Below are positions 13,056 to 63,394 of a stretch of 64,000 bases of DNA, piece by piece; the first letter of the stretch is position 1, and each line of letters starts with the position of its first letter. The notes under the pieces are model-generated. The model worked only from the letters and a program-made list of their open reading frames with translations, was not told the DNA's origin and made no database searches. This DNA is from Methanoculleus caldifontis (lineage in GTDB: Archaea > Halobacteriota > Methanomicrobia > Methanomicrobiales > Methanoculleaceae). A program made the position numbers and the translations under genes. The stretch covers positions 496,001 through 560,000 of the forward strand of contig NZ_WBKO01000001.1 in assembly GCF_032842345.1 (NCBI RefSeq), read 5' to 3'.

Positions 13056-13673
13056 TCAGTCCTCTCGTGCAGACCCTCCGGCCTCAGTGAGTTCGCGCCT
13101 GACGATCGTAAAATCCTCCTCCAGGGCTTTTCGATACGCCGGGTTGTAGAGCGCGGCGGCGGGGTGGAGGGTGGGGATGAGGCGGACCGGGTGGCCGAAG
13201 AGGAGGCCCGGGTAGACGGTCCCGCGGATCTCCGTGATCCGGTTAAACTCCACGGGCAGGAAGGAGAGGATGTACCTGCTCGAGTGCCTGCCAAGCATCA
13301 CGACGACTTTCGGCCCGATCAGCCGGATCTGCTCCTCGAGATACGGGGTACAGGCCCGGATCTCCTCGTCCCGCGGGTCGCGGTTCCCGGGCGGCCGGTG
13401 CTTGACGATGTTCGCGATGAAGACCTCGTCCCGGACAAGGCCGATCCCCGCAAGGAGGCTGTCGAGCAGCTTTCCCGCCCGCCCGACAAACGGCCTCCCG
13501 GTGAGATCCTCCCGCTCTCCCGGCGCTTCGCCGATGAACATGAGGTCGGCCCGGATGTTCCCGTCCCCCGGGACCGCATGATGGGTATTCTCCCAGAGAG
13601 GGCACTTCCGGCACTCGCCGATGACCGCGGCGAGCCTCTCCATCGCTACCTCTCTCCCCGTCTCCTCTTCCAT
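13056..13673 (-). CDS. Type-4 (Fe-S) uracil-DNA glycosylase
   Basis: 205 residues. The early pair C-x2-C (ECRKCPLW) and later cysteines fit the 4Fe-4S cluster of family 4 UDG. The active site motif GEAPGEREDLTGRPFVGRAG and the downstream TLHPAAAL motif are diagnostic. It removes uracil from DNA arising by cytosine deamination. The start at 13673 (MEEETG) is preferred over a longer frame because a TATA-like box (GGTTATACGA, about 13695-13705) is centred 26-27 bases upstream, predicting a leaderless mRNA. Confidence 0.92.
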   Translation of the reverse strand: MEEETGREVAMERLAAVIGECRKCPLWENTHHAVPGDGNIRADLMFIGEAPGEREDLTGRPFVGRAGKLLDSLLAGIGLVRDEVFIANIVKHRPPGNRDPRDEEIRACTPYLEEQIRLIGPKVVVMLGRHSSRYILSFLPVEFNRITEIRGTVYPGLLFGHPVRLIPTLHPAAALYNPAYRKALEEDFTIVRRELTEAGGSARED

Positions 13674-13784
13674 GCCCACACTATTGACGATAACTCGTAT
13701 AACCTTCTTATGCATTGCGATCTGGGCCGGCGCGGGCAGACTCCGGGGGCGTGGCCGTTCCCGTGTGTCCGGGAGGCGGTGCAC

Positions 13785-13977
13785 TTCGCGTTCTTCGCGG
13801 CTCGCACCTGGTGGCCCGTCGCTGCTCGCACTTGCAGTGCTCTAACTCCGGCCCTGCGGCCTGTCGCTGCTCGCACTTGCAGTGCTCGAGCTCCGGCCCT
13901 GCGGCCCGTCGCTGCTCGAAAACGCTTCGCGTTTTCTCGAGCTCCGGACGTTCCGTCCGTCGCTCACTCAACCTTAA
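13785..13977 (+). repeat. Modular hairpin repeat, copy A (two 45-bp units plus variant units)
   Basis: Two near-identical 45-base units start at 13818 and 13863 and a divergent unit follows at 13908. The conserved linkers GTCGCTGCTCG and CTCGAGCTCCG alternate with hairpins of different sequence: GCACT-TGC-AGTGC (13828-13840 and 13873-13885), GAAAACGC-TTC-GCGTTTTC (13918-13936) and CGGACG-TTC-CGTCCG (13945-13959). The linkers stay fixed while the stems change. It lies in the divergent gap between uracil-DNA glycosylase and LysRS. Related copies occur near 28611, 37491 and 62441. Confidence 0.75.
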
Positions 13978-14102
13978 TACCCCCGAGAGAAACATTATAC
14001 TAGAATTTCCCGGTGAAGGGTGCGGCCCTGCCCCATCAGACGGCGGCAAAGATGCATTTGGGGCTCGATATGGTCTGCAGGGCGAAGGGAGCTGAATACG
14101 TT

Positions 14103-15629
14103 ATGAGTGATACTGATCGTCTCTGCTTTGACACGACAAAGATCGATAAACTGCAGGAACTGCGCGAGCGCGGGGTGACGCTGTACCCCTACACCTTCGA
14201 GCGAAAGGATACCGTCACGGGGATCAAGGAACGGTTCTCCGGGATCGGGCACGATAAAAGCGAGGAGGAGGTCAGCACCGCCGGCCGCGTCTACGTCGTC
14301 CGCCAGCACGGCAAGACGATCTTTGCGGACATGGGGGACTCGGACGGCAGGCTCCAGCTCTACCTCAGGAAGAACGATCTCGGCGAGGAGCAGTTCGACC
14401 TCTTCCGGCAGTACGTCGACGCCGGGGACATCATCGGCGTCGTCGGCCACGTCTTCCGGACGAAGATGGGCGAGATCACGATCTGGGTCGACCGGTTCGA
14501 ACTCCTGACGAAGTCGGTCTGCCCGCTCCCGGAGAAGTTCCACGGGCTCAAGAACGTCGAGACCCGCTACCGGCAGCGCTACCTCGACCTGATCATGAAC
14601 GAGGAGAGCCGCGAGACCTTCCGGACCCGGAGCAGGATCATATCGCTCCTGCGGCAGTTCCTCTTCGAGCGGGAGTACCTGGAGTTCGAGACGCCCACCC
14701 TGCAGCCGATCTACGGCGGCGCGAACGCCCGGCCGTTCACCACTCACCACAACGCTCTCGACCAGAAACTCTACCTCCGGATCGCGCCGGAACTCTACCT
14801 CAAGCGCCTCGTCGTCGGCGGGTTCGACAGGGTCTTTGAGATCGCAAAGAACTTCAGGAACGAGGACATCGACACCAACCACAACCCGGAGTTCTCGATG
14901 GTGGAGATCTACGAGGCCTACCGGGACTACAACGACATGATGGACCTCACCGAGGAGATCTTCTCCTACCTCGCAGAGACGATACACGGAAAGCCCGTAT
15001 GCTCGTTTGCCGGGCAGGAACTTGACTTCACCCGCCCCTGGCGCCGCCTCTCGATGGAGGAAGCGGTCCGGGAGTACGCCGGGATCGACATCAACGCGAT
15101 GAGCCTTGAGGAGCTCCGGGCGTTCGGTCTCGAACGCTGCGTCGAGGGCTGCGAGAGCGCCACGACCCGCGGCGAGTACCTGGTGCTCTTCTTTGAGCAC
15201 TTCGGCGAGAAGCAGCTCGTCCAGCCGACATTCGTCTACGACTTCCCCGTCGAGAACTCGCCGCTCGCAAAGAAGCACCGCTCAAAGGAAGGGATGACGG
15301 AGCGGTTCGAGCTCTTCATCGCCGGGATGGAGATGGCGAACGGTTTCTCGGAGTTGAACGACCCGCTCGACCAGAAGGCGCGGCTCGAACTGCAGGACGC
15401 GAAGCGCCAGAGGGGCGACCTCGAGGCGCAGATGGTCGATTACGACTTCATCAACGCGCTCGGCTACGGGATGCCCCCGACGGGCGGCGTCGGGATCGGG
15501 ATCGACCGGCTCGTGATGCTCCTCACCGGCAAGGACTCCATCAAGGAGGTTCTCCTCTTCCCGCAGATGAGGACCCCCGTCTCCGGCTCGAACGGGTCGG
15601 AACCGGAGCAGGACGGCGGCGAGGAGTAA
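14103..15629 (+). CDS. lysS: Lysyl-tRNA synthetase, class II
   Basis: 508 residues. An N-terminal OB-fold anticodon-binding domain (about 50-150) precedes the class II catalytic core. Motif 2 is [22 protein letters not shown]-like at about 290-310 and motif 3 is [15 protein letters not shown] near the C-terminus. It charges tRNA-Lys with lysine. The start at 14103 (MSDTDR) is preceded by GAAGGGAG with about ten bases spacing; an upstream GTG at 14013 would add an unlikely N-terminus. Many archaea use class I LysRS, so the class II enzyme is notable though not unusual in methanogens. Confidence 0.93.
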
Positions 15630-15856: not shown

Positions 15857-17734
15857 TCAGGCGGCCTTCCGGAGCGTGAGCCTGATGGCCGCCCCGCATT
15901 CCGGCCGGCCTTCCACCCGATCCTCTGCCCGGATCGTCCCGCCGTATCGCGTGACAAGCATCCGACAGATGTAGAGGCCAAGACCCCGGCCGCTTTTTTC
16001 GCTCTCGCCCCCGCTGAAACGGTTGAAGAGGCTCCGCTTCCGCTCGTCGGGGATGCCGGGCCCGGTATCCTCGACCGAGACCAGGACGAACTCGCCCTCG
16101 TCCTCCACCCCGACGGCGATCTCGACTGCAGGGCCGCCGAACTTCGCCGCGTTCCCGATCAGGTTCGTGAAGATCTCAAAGATGAGATCGTCAGCAAGGA
16201 CAACTGCCGTGCTGCCCGGATACGTGATCTTCACGTCAGAGTGGTGCCCGATCTCCGACCGGATGACGGGGTCGAGCGCGATAGGTCGAAGGACCGCGGT
16301 TTCTTCCCGGATCTGCCTGATGGTGTTGACGTTCCTGATGATCTCCGTGCTCTTTCCAAGACTCCTCTGTATCTTCTCGGTATAATTCCGCGGCTCCCCC
16401 TCGAGCTCTTCGAGGAGGAGATCCGCATAAAGGCTCGCGGTGTTGGTGGCGTTCTTGATATCGTGCGTCATGATATCCAGGTACAGGTTCGCCTTCTCCG
16501 TCGACTCCTGCAACTCCGCCGTCCGCTCCTCGACCTGCTCCTCCAGGTTCTCGCTGTACTCCCGGATCGTCTCCTCCGAGTCCTGGAGGCGCCGTATGCC
16601 CGCTTTCAGGCTCGCGACCATCGTGTTGATGCTCCGCTCGAGCCTCATTACCTCGCGGGTCGCCGAGGTCCGGACGGTGTGATCGAGGTCTCCCTGCGCG
16701 ATGACGTCGACGTCATCGATGATCTCTTCAATCGGGCGCGTGAGGCGGCGGGCTACGAGGAAGATGATCCCGCTGCAGAGAACTATCGCGAGGGTTGCAA
16801 CGGCAGCGCGGTAGTAGAGCATCTGGTCGAGCTGGCTCTGGATGAGTGCGGTGTTGTACGTCAGCTCGACGACGACGCTCGGATCCGAGGGGTAATCCGG
16901 ATCTTTCAGATCGATGAAGAGGTACCGGACCTGCCTTCCGCGATCATCCCGCATCTCGTAATCCGCTCTCCCGGGGATGACGGTCCCGGTGACGAGTGCC
17001 CGGTTTTCGGCGTCGGGGGGCTCACCGGTCTCTCCGACAGGGTTCCCGAAGGTGTCGTAGACGCGGATCGACTCGAGATACGGGTTTAAGGCGACGAACT
17101 CCTGCGTGCTCTGCTGTGAGCGCAACCGGTTCCGTTCCTCCACGAACGCACCCGGCACGAGCCCGATCTCGAGAAGGTACCGGTGGTCCGGCGTCGGCAT
17201 ATAGGCATACTTCCGGACCTGCCCGGTTGCGCGCTCGTATACCACGCGATCGGGGAAGAATTCGTCTCCGAGACGCATCCGGGTGATCTCCGCATAGAAC
17301 TCCGGCATCTCTCTGAAGTCAAGGCCCTGGTCGGGAGGATAGGTGGTGTACTCGACGACCCCAGATTGGTTGATGACGTAGAGATCCATATCGCCCCCGA
17401 GCTCTCTTTTGATTGCGAAGAGATCCATCTGGGACGGGTCCCCTCCCGCCCGCTCATACTCTTCAAGAAAGAGCGTAAGCCCTCTTTGCAACCGGAGATT
17501 GAGCGAATCGTCGAAGAGCTTGAGCCCGGCATCCGTATCCGTGATCGATTCGCGGATGCTCTTCTCGGTGACGCTCTGCAGGGTGGCGAGGTCCGAGGTC
17601 ATCCTCGCTTCGGCCTGCACGTAGTCATAGACAGAGAGGAAGCCGATAGCGGGGATGACGATGAGAAGGATGGCTATAATAAGGGTGGACGCGAACGGTC
17701 GGGTCCCGGGAACAGGTGCGCGAGCGCTCGTCAT
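15857..17734 (-). CDS. Membrane sensor histidine kinase (Cache-HAMP), paralogue 1
   Basis: 625 residues. A first membrane helix (about 19-41), an extracellular Cache-type sensor (about 45-315), a second helix (about 318-340), a HAMP domain, a coiled coil, and the kinase core. The H box reads LYLDIMTHDIKNATN; the ATP-binding domain has NLIGNAAKFGG, DTGPGIP and GLGLYICRMLV. It probably binds a small extracellular ligand and autophosphorylates in the cytoplasm. It is closely related along its full length to the next two kinase genes, which points to local duplication. No response regulator is nearby. Confidence 0.9.
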   Translation of the reverse strand: MTSARAPVPGTRPFASTLIIAILLIVIPAIGFLSVYDYVQAEARMTSDLATLQSVTEKSIRESITDTDAGLKLFDDSLNLRLQRGLTLFLEEYERAGGDPSQMDLFAIKRELGGDMDLYVINQSGVVEYTTYPPDQGLDFREMPEFYAEITRMRLGDEFFPDRVVYERATGQVRKYAYMPTPDHRYLLEIGLVPGAFVEERNRLRSQQSTQEFVALNPYLESIRVYDTFGNPVGETGEPPDAENRALVTGTVIPGRADYEMRDDRGRQVRYLFIDLKDPDYPSDPSVVVELTYNTALIQSQLDQMLYYRAAVATLAIVLCSGIIFLVARRLTRPIEEIIDDVDVIAQGDLDHTVRTSATREVMRLERSINTMVASLKAGIRRLQDSEETIREYSENLEEQVEERTAELQESTEKANLYLDIMTHDIKNATNTASLYADLLLEELEGEPRNYTEKIQRSLGKSTEIIRNVNTIRQIREETAVLRPIALDPVIRSEIGHHSDVKITYPGSTAVVLADDLIFEIFTNLIGNAAKFGGPAVEIAVGVEDEGEFVLVSVEDTGPGIPDERKRSLFNRFSGGESEKSGRGLGLYICRMLVTRYGGTIRAEDRVEGRPECGAAIRLTLRKAA

Positions 17735-19824: not shown

Positions 19825-21713
19825 CGGCCACCTCCCGCCCCGGCCTTCCGGAGCGTGAACCTGATGGCCGCCCCGCACTCCGGCCGGCCTTCCACCCGGT
19901 CCTCTGCCCATATCCTTCCGCCGTATCGTTCGACGAGCATCCGGCAGATGTAGAGGCCGAGCCCGGTCCCCGCCGCCCGGTGGGTTCCCCGGCTCAGCCG
20001 GTCGAAGAGCCGCGGCTTCACGGCATCGGGGATGCCCGGCCCGTCATCCTCAACGGAGATGACGACCTCCTCCCCGTGCTCCTCGACCCGGATGGCGATC
20101 CCGATCTCCGGGCCCCCGAACTTGACGGCGTTGCCGATGAGGTTTGCAAAGACCTCCGAGAGGAGGTCGTCGGCGAGGACGACGGCGGTGCTGCCCGTAT
20201 AGGCGATCCTCGCGCCGGGAGACTGCTCGATCTCGCGCCTGATGACCAGGTCGAGATCGACCGGACTGGGCGACAGCAGGCCCCCCTGGATGTGCTGAAT
20301 GGTGTTGACGTTCCGGACGATCTCGATGCTCTTTGCGAGCCCGATCTTTGCCTTCCGGAGCAGCTCGGCTTCGGGCTGCCCCTCGATCTCTGTAAGGAGG
20401 AGGTCGGAGTAGAGGTTTGCGACGTTGTTCGCGTTGTTGATGTCGTGCCGCATGATGTCGAGGAAGAGGGTCGCCATGCGGTTCGACTCCTCGAGATCGG
20501 CCGTCCGCTCCCGGACCTCCTCTTCGAGGGTATGGCTGCGCCGGATAATCTCCTCCTCCGACGCCCGGAGTTTCTGCATCGTCTCCTTCAGGGCTCCAAC
20601 CATCGCCGAGACGCTCTCACCGAGGCGTACGAACTCCTCGCTCCCGTCCACTCTGATGGGGTGGGAGAGGTCGCCCCGCGCGACGGCATCGACGTCCTCG
20701 ACGAGGTTGCGCACCGGCCGCGCAAGGACATGCACGGCGAAGGCGGAGAGGCAACTGATGAGAACGAATCCGACGAGGAGAACCCCGACCTGCCGGGCAA
20801 ACAGATCCGCGATCTTCTCATCTGCGGCCTTCGTGGAGTAGGTCAGCTCAACGATCATGCTCATATCCGACGCATAATCACTATCCGAGAGATCGACGAA
20901 GAGATACCGGGTCAGTTCACCCGCGGTGGCGTTCACCTCCTCAAGCGTGGTCTTCTCGCGGTACGCCTGCCGCACCAGCAAGAGTCGGTGATCGTCGTCG
21001 GGATGTGCCTTGCCGGTAACCCGGGTGCCCATACAGTCGAAGATCCGGATCTCCCGGATCCCCGGATTCAGGTTCACCAGATCCCTGACCGCGTCGCCGT
21101 ATTTCAGCGTCGTACGGTACCGCCGGAACTCTGACTCCGCAAGGCCGAGCTCGAAGAGATAGCGGTGGTCGGGTGAGGGGAGATACGCGTACTTCCGGAA
21201 CTCCCCGGTGGCGATCCCGGCAACGACCCTGTCGGCCGCGAAGGTCTCGCCGAGCCGGATCTCCGTGATGCGGTCGTAAAAGGATGGGTATTCCCTGAAG
21301 TCGCATCCCAGATCGGGGAGATAAGTGGTGTACTCGATGACGCCGCTCTCGTTGATGATATACACGTCCATCCCGCCCCCGAGCGCCTCCTTGACCCGGA
21401 GAAGGTCCATCCGGGCCGGGTCACCTCCCGTCCGCTCGTATTCGGCGAGGACGGGACCGAATGCCTCCTCCATCTCGCGGTCCAGGGTGCCGTCGAAGAG
21501 TTTCAACCCCGCATCGACGAGGCTCAGGGAGAGGATGGCACCGTATTCGGTCTGTTCACGAAATTCTTCGGCATTTGCCTCCAGCCCCTGCTGGACCCCG
21601 ATGTAGTCGATACACGAGATCAGGCAGACGACGGGGCCCATCGCGAGCACGATGGCAAGCAGGAGGTAGACCATGAACGGGAGCGAGGGCCGTGCCGCTC
21701 TCTTTGCCGCCAT
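19821..21713 (-). CDS. Membrane sensor histidine kinase (Cache-HAMP), paralogue 3
   Basis: 630 residues: first helix (about 12-36), Cache sensor (about 40-285), second helix (about 288-312), HAMP, coiled coil, H box LFLDIMRHDINNANN and a HATPase domain with DDGPGIP and GLGLYICRMLV. The sensor shares motifs with the other two, for example DLL-type and VIEYTTY segments followed by GLDFR or GCDFR, so the three probably sense related ligands. It is the first gene of the kinase operon. A TATA-like GATAAATATCC lies near 21793-21803. Confidence 0.9.
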   Translation of the reverse strand: MAAKRAARPSLPFMVYLLLAIVLAMGPVVCLISCIDYIGVQQGLEANAEEFREQTEYGAILSLSLVDAGLKLFDGTLDREMEEAFGPVLAEYERTGGDPARMDLLRVKEALGGGMDVYIINESGVIEYTTYLPDLGCDFREYPSFYDRITEIRLGETFAADRVVAGIATGEFRKYAYLPSPDHRYLFELGLAESEFRRYRTTLKYGDAVRDLVNLNPGIREIRIFDCMGTRVTGKAHPDDDHRLLLVRQAYREKTTLEEVNATAGELTRYLFVDLSDSDYASDMSMIVELTYSTKAADEKIADLFARQVGVLLVGFVLISCLSAFAVHVLARPVRNLVEDVDAVARGDLSHPIRVDGSEEFVRLGESVSAMVGALKETMQKLRASEEEIIRRSHTLEEEVRERTADLEESNRMATLFLDIMRHDINNANNVANLYSDLLLTEIEGQPEAELLRKAKIGLAKSIEIVRNVNTIQHIQGGLLSPSPVDLDLVIRREIEQSPGARIAYTGSTAVVLADDLLSEVFANLIGNAVKFGGPEIGIAIRVEEHGEEVVISVEDDGPGIPDAVKPRLFDRLSRGTHRAAGTGLGLYICRMLVERYGGRIWAEDRVEGRPECGAAIRFTLRKAGAGGGR

Positions 21714-28142: not shown

Positions 28143-29068
28143 GATATTCTGTCAGCGGCGGCACTCTTTTTCTGCGCGGCCGGTTCCGTGCGGCGAGCAC
28201 CGGGGTCCACGGGGGTCTCGCCGACGCCACGACGGTCTTCAACCACACGGTGCCGCACGAGTTCCGCGACGATCCGGCACGCTACCTGGAACTGCTCGCC
28301 GCCCGGCACGGCCTCTTTCGGGACTATTTCGGCCTACTGACCGCCGTCGAGATGCGCCACCTCTGCGTGCTCCAGTACGACTTCGTTACGGTCTTTATCA
28401 CCGCCGGGGTGACGAACCCGACCGGGGCACCCAACGCCCCGCACACGATCAACATCGTCGTCTACAGCAGGGAGGGGATGGTCGACGCGGCGCTTCTTGA
28501 GACGATCATCACCGCGACCGGGGCGAAGGCCCAGGCGCTCCACGGCCTCGGCTACGACTTTCCCGGTACGACGACCGACGCGGTCGCCGTCGCCTGCGAT
28601 CGCGACGCCGCTCAAGCGCACCTTCGGTGCGCCTGCTCCGGCCCATCGGCCCATCGCACCCTTCACGCCTACGCGGGAGCCCTGACCGAGGTCGGCCGGC
28701 GGGTCCACGCAGCGATCCTCTACGGCCTCCCGGAGGCCCTCGCCCGGCAACAGGGGAAGGTCCGGCGGAGCGAACCCTCGTTCTTCATCTACAGCCGCTA
28801 CGGCGGGGAGCACTGGGTCGAGTGGGAGAAGGACGGATGCCCCTACTACCCCTGCCACTTTGCCGGACAGCGGTGCGACTACTGCTACTGCCCCTGTTAC
28901 CCCTGCGCCGACGAGGAACTCGGCGAGTGGGTCGAGAGTTCAAGCGGCGGCAAGGTCTGGGGGTGCGCGAACTGCACGCTCCTGCACCTCCCCGGTGTCG
29001 CGGAGTATATGAAAAGGAATCCCGAGGCGACTCTCGCGGAGCTCAAGCGCCTCCGGGAAAAATTATAA
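28139..29068 (+). CDS. cbiZ: Adenosylcobinamide amidohydrolase (CbiZ) fused to a Cys-rich small domain
   Basis: 309 residues. The first two thirds match CbiZ: VTVFITAGVTNPTGAPNAP, HTINIVVYSR, and GTTTDAVAVA followed by YAGALTEVGRRVHAA. CbiZ cleaves adenosylcobinamide to adenosylcobyric acid to salvage corrinoids. The last 85 residues form a cysteine-rich domain (CPYYPCHFAGQRCDYCYCPCYPC) known in methanogens. Between the two conserved CbiZ blocks, residues about 158-174 are encoded by a hairpin repeat (28611-28660), so this loop is probably an insertion. It overlaps the NrdD-like gene by four bases. Confidence 0.86.
   Translation: MRYSVSGGTLFLRGRFRAASTGVHGGLADATTVFNHTVPHEFRDDPARYLELLAARHGLFRDYFGLLTAVEMRHLCVLQYDFVTVFITAGVTNPTGAPNAPHTINIVVYSREGMVDAALLETIITATGAKAQALHGLGYDFPGTTTDAVAVACDRDAAQAHLRCACSGPSAHRTLHAYAGALTEVGRRVHAAILYGLPEALARQQGKVRRSEPSFFIYSRYGGEHWVEWEKDGCPYYPCHFAGQRCDYCYCPCYPCADEELGEWVESSSGGKVWGCANCTLLHLPGVAEYMKRNPEATLAELKRLREKL
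28611..28660 (+). repeat. Modular hairpin repeat, copy D, inside cbiZ
   Basis: CTCAAG is followed by the perfect hairpin GCGCACC-TTC-GGTGCGC (28616-28632), then CTGCTCCG and a second GGCC-containing hairpin. The linkers resemble those of the copy at 13785-13977. It is read through in frame by cbiZ. Confidence 0.55.
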
Positions 29069-37219: not shown

Positions 37220-37369
37220 CATCTCATTTTGGGCTGCTCGGAGAGCATCCCCGGGTAGATGGCGACCCGTTCCGCGCCCTGGCGCGAGACGCCATCACTA
37301 TACCTCCACCATCGATTTACACAAAGGTGCAAAGGGGTCGTCGAACTCCTACGCCGGACTTCGCGTCTT

Positions 37370-37424
37370 TTCGCGGCTTCGCGTGAGGCCATATTACGGG
37401 CAAAATCTCACGCGAAGCCGCGAA
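37370..37424. repeat. 18-bp perfect inverted repeat
   Basis: TTCGCGGCTTCGCGTGAG (37370-37387) is exactly inverted at 37407-37424, 19 bases apart. Weaker similarity extends outward on both sides (ACTTCGCGTC against GATCGCGAAG). It lies in the convergent gap after the DUF35 gene and could form a terminator hairpin or be a mobile repeat. Confidence 0.6.
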
Positions 37425-37490
37425 GATCGCGAAGGGGAGTTGCAGCAACCCTGCCGGCTTCGTACCTCGAAGACCTTCGATCTTCTCAAA

Positions 37491-37567
37491 CTCGCTTTGC
37501 TCGCACTTCGCATCTGACGGTGCTCGAGCTCCGTTCTTGCGGGACGTCGCACTTTGCGTGACCGCTC
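37491..37567 (+). repeat. Modular hairpin repeat, copy B
   Basis: Contains the linker CTCGAGCTCCG (37523-37533) next to a hairpin GTTCT-TGC-GGGAC (37533-37545) that needs G-U pairs, then GTCGC. This is the same linker order as the copy at 13785-13977. It lies in the convergent gap between the DUF35 and tRNA methyltransferase genes and runs up to the stop of the latter. Confidence 0.55.
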
Positions 37568-62437: not shown

Positions 62438-63394
62438 ATGCGGGACGACGCGTCGGGTCGGAGCTTGAGCACGGAAGATGCGAGTCCGGAGCCTCCGAAG
62501 GCCGAAGGCCTTCGAGGTGGAGCACCGGAGGTGCGGGTCCGGGTGCAGCGGATCTTCATCATCGTTCTCGCTCTGAACCTCACTGTTGCACTCGCAAAAG
62601 CAGTCTTCGGCCTCCTCGCCGGGTCGGTGAGCATGGTCGCGGACGCCGTCCATTCGGGCTTCGACTCGTTCTCAAACGTCGTCGGGATCGTTGCCCTCTA
62701 CTTCTCGACGAGGCCTCCCGACCCGGAGCATCCCTACGGCCACGGCAAGATCGAGACGCTCGGAACCCTGGTCATCGGAGCGATGCTCCTCCTGACCGCC
62801 GGCGCGATCGTCCTTGAGGGCTATCGGCGGCTCGTCGACACCGCCGTTCCCGACATCACCCCGGTCACCGTCGGGGTGATGGTCGCAACCCTCGCCATCA
62901 ACCTCGCCGTCTCCACCTACGAGAGGAGAAAGGGCGAGGAGTACCGGAGCCAGATCCTCATCGCCGACTCCATGCATACGAGGAGCGACGTCTTCGTCTC
63001 GATCGCCGTCCTCGGCGGCTTCCTCGCCGTCACGCTCGGTTTTCCCGAAGCCGACCCGGTCATCGCTCTCGCCATCGGCCTCCTCATCGCGAGGATGGGG
63101 ATCGGGATCCTCCACAGCGCAGCAAAGGTCCTCACCGATACGATGGACCTCCCCTGCGACCCGGCGCTCATCCGGGCGGTGGTGATGGATACCCCCGGGG
63201 TTGCCGGATACCATGATTTCCGGTGCCGGGGGAAGCCGGGAGAGATCTTTGCCGATATTCACATCACCGTCGACCCGGTCCTCTCCGTCGCCGGGGCCCA
63301 CGAGATCTCCGAGGAGGTGGAACGGCGGCTCCGGGAGACGGTGCCGGGACTTGCCGAGGTCGTCGTCCACATCGAGCCGGACGGATTACGATGA
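62438..63394 (+). CDS. Cation diffusion facilitator (CDF) family transporter
   Basis: 318 residues from the ATG at 62438. After an unusual polar N-terminus (about 30 residues, made by a hairpin repeat) come six helices with the metal motifs ADAVHSGFDSFSN and ADSMHTRSDVFVS, then a C-terminal CDF domain ending in a histidine-containing strand. It exports zinc, iron or cobalt by proton exchange. An upstream GTG at 62420 or a GTG near 62530 are alternative starts; the latter would remove the repeat-encoded part. Confidence 0.9.
   Translation: MRDDASGRSLSTEDASPEPPKAEGLRGGAPEVRVRVQRIFIIVLALNLTVALAKAVFGLLAGSVSMVADAVHSGFDSFSNVVGIVALYFSTRPPDPEHPYGHGKIETLGTLVIGAMLLLTAGAIVLEGYRRLVDTAVPDITPVTVGVMVATLAINLAVSTYERRKGEEYRSQILIADSMHTRSDVFVSIAVLGGFLAVTLGFPEADPVIALAIGLLIARMGIGILHSAAKVLTDTMDLPCDPALIRAVVMDTPGVAGYHDFRCRGKPGEIFADIHITVDPVLSVAGAHEISEEVERRLRETVPGLAEVVVHIEPDGLR
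62441..62535 (-). repeat. Modular hairpin repeat, copy C, at the 5' end of the CDF gene
   Basis: Read on the minus strand: GCACC-TCC-GGTGC (62522-62534), CGAAGGCC-TTC-GGCCTTCG (62496-62514), then CTCGCATCTTCCGTGCTCAAGC and TCCG, matching the linker and hairpin order of the other copies. It overlaps the first 30 codons of the CDF gene. Confidence 0.6.

Follow-up and report, generated by a model that had tools for sequence, protein, structure and literature searches.

A double-hairpin repeat of Methanoculleus that is probably a very small non-autonomous mobile DNA element

The window analysed here, a stretch of 64,000 nucleotides of the Methanoculleus caldifontis genome (contig NZ_WBKO01000001.1, positions 496,001 to 560,000), contains a repeat in which two hairpins of changing sequence are held in a frame of fixed short linkers. 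We consider this double-hairpin repeat to be, probably, a very small non-autonomous mobile DNA element that inserts at pyrimidine triplets and acts as a DNA hairpin. The mobile unit would be about 42-48 bp long, comprising hairpin Q, the linker TCRNRCTC, hairpin P and the end TCGCA or TCGCN, and would insert at pyrimidine triplets (CTC, TTC, TCC), leaving a 3-bp duplication. If this is right, it ranks with the smallest mobile DNA units so far described (~45 bp) and provides a clear example from nature of conserved structure without conserved sequence.

The array upstream of lysS and its relatives

The array occupies 13813-13969 of the window and consists of head-to-tail tandem units of 45-51 bp, each with two hairpins (Q and P) in the frame CTC-[Q]-TCRNRCTC-[P]-TCGCN (Table 1). 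The linkers of neighbouring units are identical while both hairpins differ (units 1 and 2 versus unit 3). GTCGCTGCTCG occurs exactly at 13818, 13863 and 13908, and CTCGAGCTCCG at 13885 and 13936. The initial annotation had described linkers and perfect hairpins at 13785-13977, and these are present where it placed them. Its list of hairpins is correct for those it named but overlooked that units 1 and 2 also have a hairpin in their second slot (GGCC-CTGC-GGCC), every unit having two hairpins. Its span holds for the array but not for 13784-13800, which belongs to a different, commoner palindromic repeat. Matches to this second palindrome (query bases 1-26) often lie near opposite-strand copies of themselves.

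The folding of 13813-13970 beats that of shuffled sequences (z of -3.26 as DNA and -3.29 as RNA). The array is located between divergent genes, a uracil-DNA glycosylase-like gene on the minus strand and lysS on the plus strand, and upstream of both predicted promoters. The long open reading frame at 13164-14003 was judged to be a high-GC opposite-frame artefact, and a protein-coding reading of the array was rejected accordingly.

Table 1. Double-hairpin units and adjoining features in the window
Feature	Position	Strand	Basis or comparison
Uracil-DNA glycosylase-like gene, apparently leaderless: predicted start and upstream sequence with TATA-like GGTTATACGAG, directed away from the array	13673-13725	-	Direct reading, ORF list; promoter putative
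Fragment of the second palindromic repeat, CTTCGCGTTCTTCGCGG, separate from the double-hairpin unit	13784-13800	+	Query bases 1-26 match many places independently
Damaged first unit, CTCGCACCTGGTG joined to GCCCGTCGCTGCTC	13801-13827	+	Direct reading; D1 repeat family
Unit 1: Q1 GCACT-TGC-AGTGC (13828-13840), linker TCTAACTC, P1 GGCC-CTGC-GGCC, TCGCTG	13828-13869	+	Sequence
Unit 2: leading CTC (13870-13872), Q2 GCACT-TGC-AGTGC (13873-13885), linker TCGAGCTC, P2 GGCC-CTGC-GGCC (13894-13908), TCGCTG	13870-13914	+	Sequence
Unit 3: leading CTC, Q3 GAAAACGC-TTC-GCGTTTTC (13918-13936), linker TCGAGCTC, P3 CGGACG-TTC-CGTCCG (13945-13959), TCGCTCACTC	13915-13969	+	Sequence
Predicted lysS promoter ATTATACTAG (ACTATATAGAATTT in relatives) and leader, directed away from the array	13994-14103	+	Conserved at orthologous loci; promoter inferred
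Clean single unit inside the cbiZ-like gene: GCGCACC-TTC-GGTGCGC, linker, CGGCCCATCGGCCCA, TCGCA	28616-28658	+	Absent in 29/29 aligned relatives
Two-unit array set inside a CGCGAAG palindromic repeat	~37466-37550	+	Sequence comparison; in relatives the site holds different hairpins or nothing
Degenerate copy	62441-62552	-	Sequence

The related copies that had been noted at 28611, 37491 and 62441 all exist (Table 1), and further copies were found elsewhere in the M. caldifontis chromosome sequence and in most Methanoculleus genomes. BLAST recovered 74 matching pieces from the genome of M. caldifontis, with hairpin-part matches in 27 separate places. Nearly all of the 24 other Methanoculleus genomes first tested have copies, several of them tens, and some small genomes almost none. 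The sampled genomes of sister families of the order have no copies, only 18-26-base matches. A first count of hairpin flanks used loci that had been retrieved for their resemblance to the window and was thus partly circular; the flank ranking in unbiased samples serves as the check on it. CTC..TC is the top-ranked hairpin flank pair in the unbiased sample of five relatives (30 hairpins in 380 kb), and is found only 0-1 times in samples of 80-120 kb from three other Methanomicrobiales. An unbiased 400 kb sample of the M. caldifontis genome, used for flank and placement counts, has a weaker enrichment (8 hairpins of stem length 6 bp or more); a cluster of two or more is present at 10 places. Database records with the exact Q hairpin are mostly from Methanoculleus. 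The viral contigs searched do not contain this hairpin, and a viral origin was rejected on these grounds. As far as sampled, the double-hairpin element thus appears to be specific to Methanoculleus.

Stem covariation and the loop rule

P hairpins were selected by their linkers alone (A[AG]CTCC...GTCG[CT], with 15 nt between), without requiring pairing, a choice that fixed the first C-G pair. Across the 51 distinct sequences obtained, 89.5% of cells pair, versus 65.9 ± 1.8 after shuffling, and the covariation score is 0.530, versus 0.150 ± 0.023 in shuffles (0 of 500 as high) and 0.152 in the best slid control. Five of the six P-stem pairs have both-sided changes. Perfect inner stems make up 34% of the unfiltered 70 sequences (3% when shuffled, maximum 11%), and more than 50 different stems are found among the perfect hairpins in frame. 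Q hairpins vary in length and align badly between copies. The changing stems with intact pairing reported in the initial annotation are therefore beyond chance, and the linker-based alignment that it proposed yields pairing and covariation far above shuffles. Its reading of this pattern as a sign of selection for structure goes further: the covariation is real, but selection is one possible cause of it, since palindrome-restoring template switching or conversion would give covariation too.

Whole hairpins are replaced between adjacent or orthologous units without an intermediate, and orthologous slots with identical linkers hold wholly different hairpins (L034 and L113); intermediates changed in a single arm of the stem are also observed. 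Perfect pairing could be maintained by the need for a hairpin, by template switching between the arms, or by both. A passive satellite, in which slippage amplifies the units, template switching keeps the palindromes perfect and covariation simply reflects mutation, would produce tandem arrays of identical units and the replacement of whole hairpins, with the one-sided intermediates; satellites of 45 and 51 bp are among those catalogued in Methanoculleus marisnigri (PMC6749651). Such a process may explain part of the stem changes. As a full account we regard it as distinctly unlikely, because it leaves unexplained the dispersal to unrelated sites, the insertion in cbiZ, the nested units with 3-bp repeats (see below) and the conserved loop rule.

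The loop rule is as follows. A TNC or TNNC loop is present in 75% of the frame hairpins with stems of at least 6 bp, versus 6.6% of 1972 control hairpins from the same DNA, so that one loop type is common to more than 50 different stems. These loops read GNA or GNNA on the opposite strand. Among 391 perfect frame hairpins, 77% have a GNA/GNNA loop and 60% combine it with a C-G closing pair and a second G-C pair. GNA/GNNA loops on G-C pairs form extraordinarily stable DNA mini-hairpins, and d(GCGAAGC) melts at about 78 C (PMC4686876); d(GCGAAGC) is the tip of the commonest long Q hairpin. Given that the frame loops match the rule for these DNA mini-hairpins, we infer that the element folds as a single-stranded DNA hairpin.

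Covariation is also commonly taken as proof of a functional RNA. The units might be transcribed, as hairpins at mRNA 3' ends or as a small RNA, protecting transcripts or stalling ribosomes, with stems that covary by selection on the RNA. We consider this unlikely. On the sense strand, most tetraloops are GNYA, unlike the GNRA of RNA, and a search with the Rfam covariance models gave no match with E up to 1, which led us to reject identity with a known RNA family. Counts of G-U versus A-C pairs, meant to separate selection on RNA from selection on DNA, are mixed with background hairpins and give no clear signal. Placement relative to genes, described below, bears on both sides of the RNA explanation. 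If the element is mobile DNA read as a folded single strand, covariation can stem from this source as well.

Insertion, turnover and placement relative to genes

The cbiZ-like gene at 28.6 kb contains one in-frame unit in M. caldifontis that is missing in 29 of 29 aligned relatives. The segment with the unit is ~45 bp longer than in most relatives and the reading frame is kept; a clear 3-bp duplication was not seen at this insertion. At the lysS site, an array occupies the corresponding position in about half of the aligned relatives, and its hairpins differ in most lineages; G007, G041 and G047 have no array there, and four closely related genomes have a nearly identical one. Arrays at the 37.4 and 39.75 kb sites vary or are missing between species. 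In L225-L254, the region downstream of the gene holds an array straight after the stop codon in several species and unrelated sequence in others.

Some arrays hold their position across species, which could mean that they have a function. One such function is a BIME-type role in DNA architecture, where the repeat would be retained for binding a chromosomal protein such as gyrase and would spread by conversion. Retention at some sites in several species despite differing hairpins fits this role, as do the mosaic, mostly intergenic hairpin arrays with fixed linkers, which are BIME-like in the features described for BIMEs in PMC2817692. However, the stem sequence is free, so that a double-stranded binding site would be limited to the short linkers. 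Several related species also have no array at the same site and some Methanoculleus genomes have almost no copies, and we regard the architectural role as very improbable.

Movement is also visible in nested copies. Whole units are found within the hairpin loops of other copies, bounded by 3-bp direct repeats, the insert starting with the first base of Q and ending in TCGCN, TCGTT or TCGTTC. These cases, small in number, include CGGACGTTC[unit]TTCCGTCCG (L227), CGGGCGTTC[unit]TTCCGCCC (L262), CTGTCC[unit]TCCTACGGACAG (L127), CGTTCCTC[unit]CTCCGGAACG (L040 and L198) and GCACCTTC[unit]TTCGGTGC (L071 and L247). For 10 of 292 units, excision of the unit together with one 3-bp repeat rebuilds a hairpin that spans the junction, although one of the ten (L044) is better seen as an ordinary tandem neighbour; shuffling the flanks among units gives 1.5 such cases on average and at most 5 in 100 shuffles. 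A 3-mer repeat at offset 5 is present in 17 of 127 non-CTC units (single flank counts), versus 5.9 expected and a maximum of 12 in 500. The left triplet is CTC in 168 units, TTC in 51, GTC in 20 and CCC in 15 (n=295), with CTC or TTC accounting for 219 of the 295. Apart from the nested and tandem copies, we recovered no pair of empty and filled sites that shows a clean duplication, in part because the flanks have diverged by 10-16%. The initial annotation had named a mobile repeat as one option, and this option is upheld by the in-gene insertion without counterpart in relatives, the nested insertions with 3-bp duplications, and the presence or absence of arrays at orthologous sites.

We propose that a mobilising factor would read the feet and the GNA/GNNA-looped hairpin in single-stranded DNA, ignoring the stem sequence. 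As such an enzyme would not read the stem, stems would be free to change provided that they pair. The TTC loops and CTC linkers of the element are themselves target triplets, and copies would therefore pile up beside and inside earlier ones, forming arrays and nested copies; some arrays would then be amplified by tandem duplication. If correct, this self-targeting of hairpin loops offers a simple route from a single insertion to arrays. Insertions in genes would mostly be lost, leaving survivors just past stop codons or between convergent genes, and this purging may have caused the stop-codon pattern.

Placement counts are approximate, being based on home-made gene calls from codon usage. The 77 clusters comprise 32 between tandem, 30 between convergent and 15 between divergent genes, whereas the 232 background intergenic regions of at least 150 bp comprise 107, 41 and 84, respectively; arrays are thus enriched between convergent genes (30/77 vs 41/232) and depleted between divergent ones. 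Orientation is single in 62 of the 77 clusters, with units head-to-tail. All 24 arrays that begin 0-8 nt past a stop codon have one polarity, the nearest array of the other polarity being at 27 nt. Both the convergent enrichment and the stop polarity favour transcribed RNA hairpins, as does the effect on translation reported for E. coli REPs that lie within 15 nt of a stop (PMC12306157); by analogy, the near-stop arrays of Methanoculleus may have such a function. Against the RNA explanation, orientation is even in tandem contexts (15 arrays with the genes, 17 against) and more than 8 nt from stops (43:39), and the lysS array lies outside both transcripts, between two predicted divergent promoters. 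The stop polarity is itself accounted for by a pyrimidine-triplet target, since a TGA stop with A or G as its next base appears as TTCA or CTCA on the element strand, so that an insertion there would spare the gene, whereas insertions at the many such triplets within genes would be lost; TAA stops (TTA on that strand) are also frequent at stop-adjacent arrays and fit this target more poorly. The RNA with a scaffold function that the initial annotation had considered is not supported, given the balanced orientation in tandem contexts, the lack of an Rfam match and loops that obey the DNA rather than the RNA stability rule.

Known systems, candidate enzymes and associated palindromes

REP and BIME sequences are widely regarded as non-autonomous mobile DNA. 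The Methanoculleus element resembles them as a short, high-copy hairpin repeat, mostly intergenic, in mosaic arrays with linkers and frequent near gene ends and stops. REPs carry GTAG or CGTC tags at the hairpin foot, and CGTC REPs also occur without a RAYT gene (PMC3733652). In contrast, the feet in Methanoculleus are CTC and TCG without a GTAG or CGTC tag, on more than 50 different stems, the units run head-to-tail instead of in alternating head-to-head pairs, and nearly all copy-rich genomes have no associated Y1 (RAYT) transposase. The element is furthermore archaeal, with 3-bp duplications and freely varying stems. It works like a REP/BIME yet fails three tested marks: the tag, the RAYT and the alternating order.

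Like MITEs, the element is short, non-coding and dispersed, with 3-bp repeats at nested copies (few cases). MITEs also share terminal inverted repeats with an autonomous transposon; the element has no fixed repeat of this kind because its stems vary, and no autonomous partner emerged among the PF01797 and PF01609 families. Double-hairpin or repetitive hairpin elements of mitochondria (Allomyces, sponges) are ~50 bp long, have two hairpins and are inserted at many sites. The Methanoculleus unit shares these features, a likeness of design, theirs being elements of eukaryote organelle genomes. Rickettsia palindromic elements are palindromic and insert in-frame into genes, as the cbiZ unit does, but are longer and have a conserved sequence. 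A further proposed analogy is with IS200/IS605 and integron attC sites, where folded single-stranded DNA is recognised by structure over sequence; however, no TnpA was found with the Methanoculleus element, and IS200/IS605 leave no duplication. Prokaryotic satellites share the head-to-tail tandem arrays but do not account for the dispersed single units.

Two satellite families of M. marisnigri, Fam_48_45_4 and Fam_102_51_3, are listed by length, the list itself describing neither hairpins nor mobility (Subirana and Messeguer 2019, PMC6749651). Compared by length alone, their 45 and 51 bp equal the array periods of the double-hairpin repeat, and they are probably its tandem form. Our literature search for such a Methanoculleus repeat returned only this satellite list, with no named family and no description of the unit or its mobility.

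No transposase could be tied to the element among the Y1_Tnp (PF01797) and DDE_Tnp_1 (PF01609) families tested. Y1_Tnp is absent from the M. caldifontis genome and nearly all copy-rich relatives. A RAYT/Y1 transposase was rejected as the driver, as it is missing in nearly all copy-rich genomes (G010 being the exception) and present in several copy-poor ones. The copy-poor genome G020 has 19 Y1 transposase matches, many of them broken. DDE_Tnp_1, which the copy-rich genomes G005, G008, G015 and G048 lack, was rejected as a driver across the genus, and PDDEXK_3 (GxxExxY), found in only 6 of 35 Methanoculleus genomes, was rejected as a driver too. In G020, a PDDEXK_3/GxxExxY gene (C237:18568-18917) has a CGCGAAG palindrome (L060, C237:18327) ~240 bp away. 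If the element is mobile, it points to a further mobilising enzyme in methanogens, and its feet, loop and YYC target provide a defined substrate for seeking it.

Beyond the genus, the exact 24-mer CTCGAAAACGCTTCGCGTTTTCTC is also found in several Lachnospiraceae MAGs, Butyrivibrio FCS014 and Halorussus ruber. The Lachnospiraceae and Butyrivibrio genomes have the exact GAAAACGC-TTC-GCGTTTTC hairpin in the CTC...TCG frame, with several copies per genome (L265, L294, L298, L302, L314, L324, L330, L332, L345). Next to this Q-type hairpin stands a second one of constant sequence, GGGCATT...AATGCCC or ATTTGGC-TTC-GCCAAAT. The CTC...TCG frame also holds GAAAATGC-TGC-GCATTTTC at one Butyrivibrio locus. 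H. ruber has a single exact Q hairpin, located close to a tRNA-like sequence, along with a few further sequences of the form CTC-hairpin-TC (L333, L374-L380). As only one hairpin type is common to Methanoculleus and Lachnospiraceae, convergence on a very stable DNA hairpin appears as likely as common descent. The Lachnospiraceae hairpins, with the same CTC...TCG frame and loops, might extend the element to a cross-domain class of mobile DNA recognised by shape alone (GNA/GNNA-looped single-strand hairpins with short feet), whose stems drift and whose members insert into their own loops with 3-bp duplications, an idea that we put forward as a doubtful though possible generalisation.

Two other palindromes accompany the arrays. 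The second palindromic family (CTCACGCGAAGCCGCGAAG ... CTTCGCGTTCTTCGCGGCTTCGCGTGAG) is found within 200 nt of 22 of the 30 arrays in the M. caldifontis genome and often hosts double-hairpin units internally (13784-13800 and 37355-37450 in the window; L017, L021, L024). A third, GC-rich palindrome (GACAGGGGAGGGGG...CCCCCTC and ACTCCCCGTCAGCCCC) flanks arrays in several species (L071, L096, L044, L039, L084), and these are set at its CCCCCTC. Elsewhere in the window, 15862-16547 and 19843-20334, about 4 kb apart, each match the other's counterparts in relatives with 72-77% identity, and are probably paralogous histidine-kinase-type genes.
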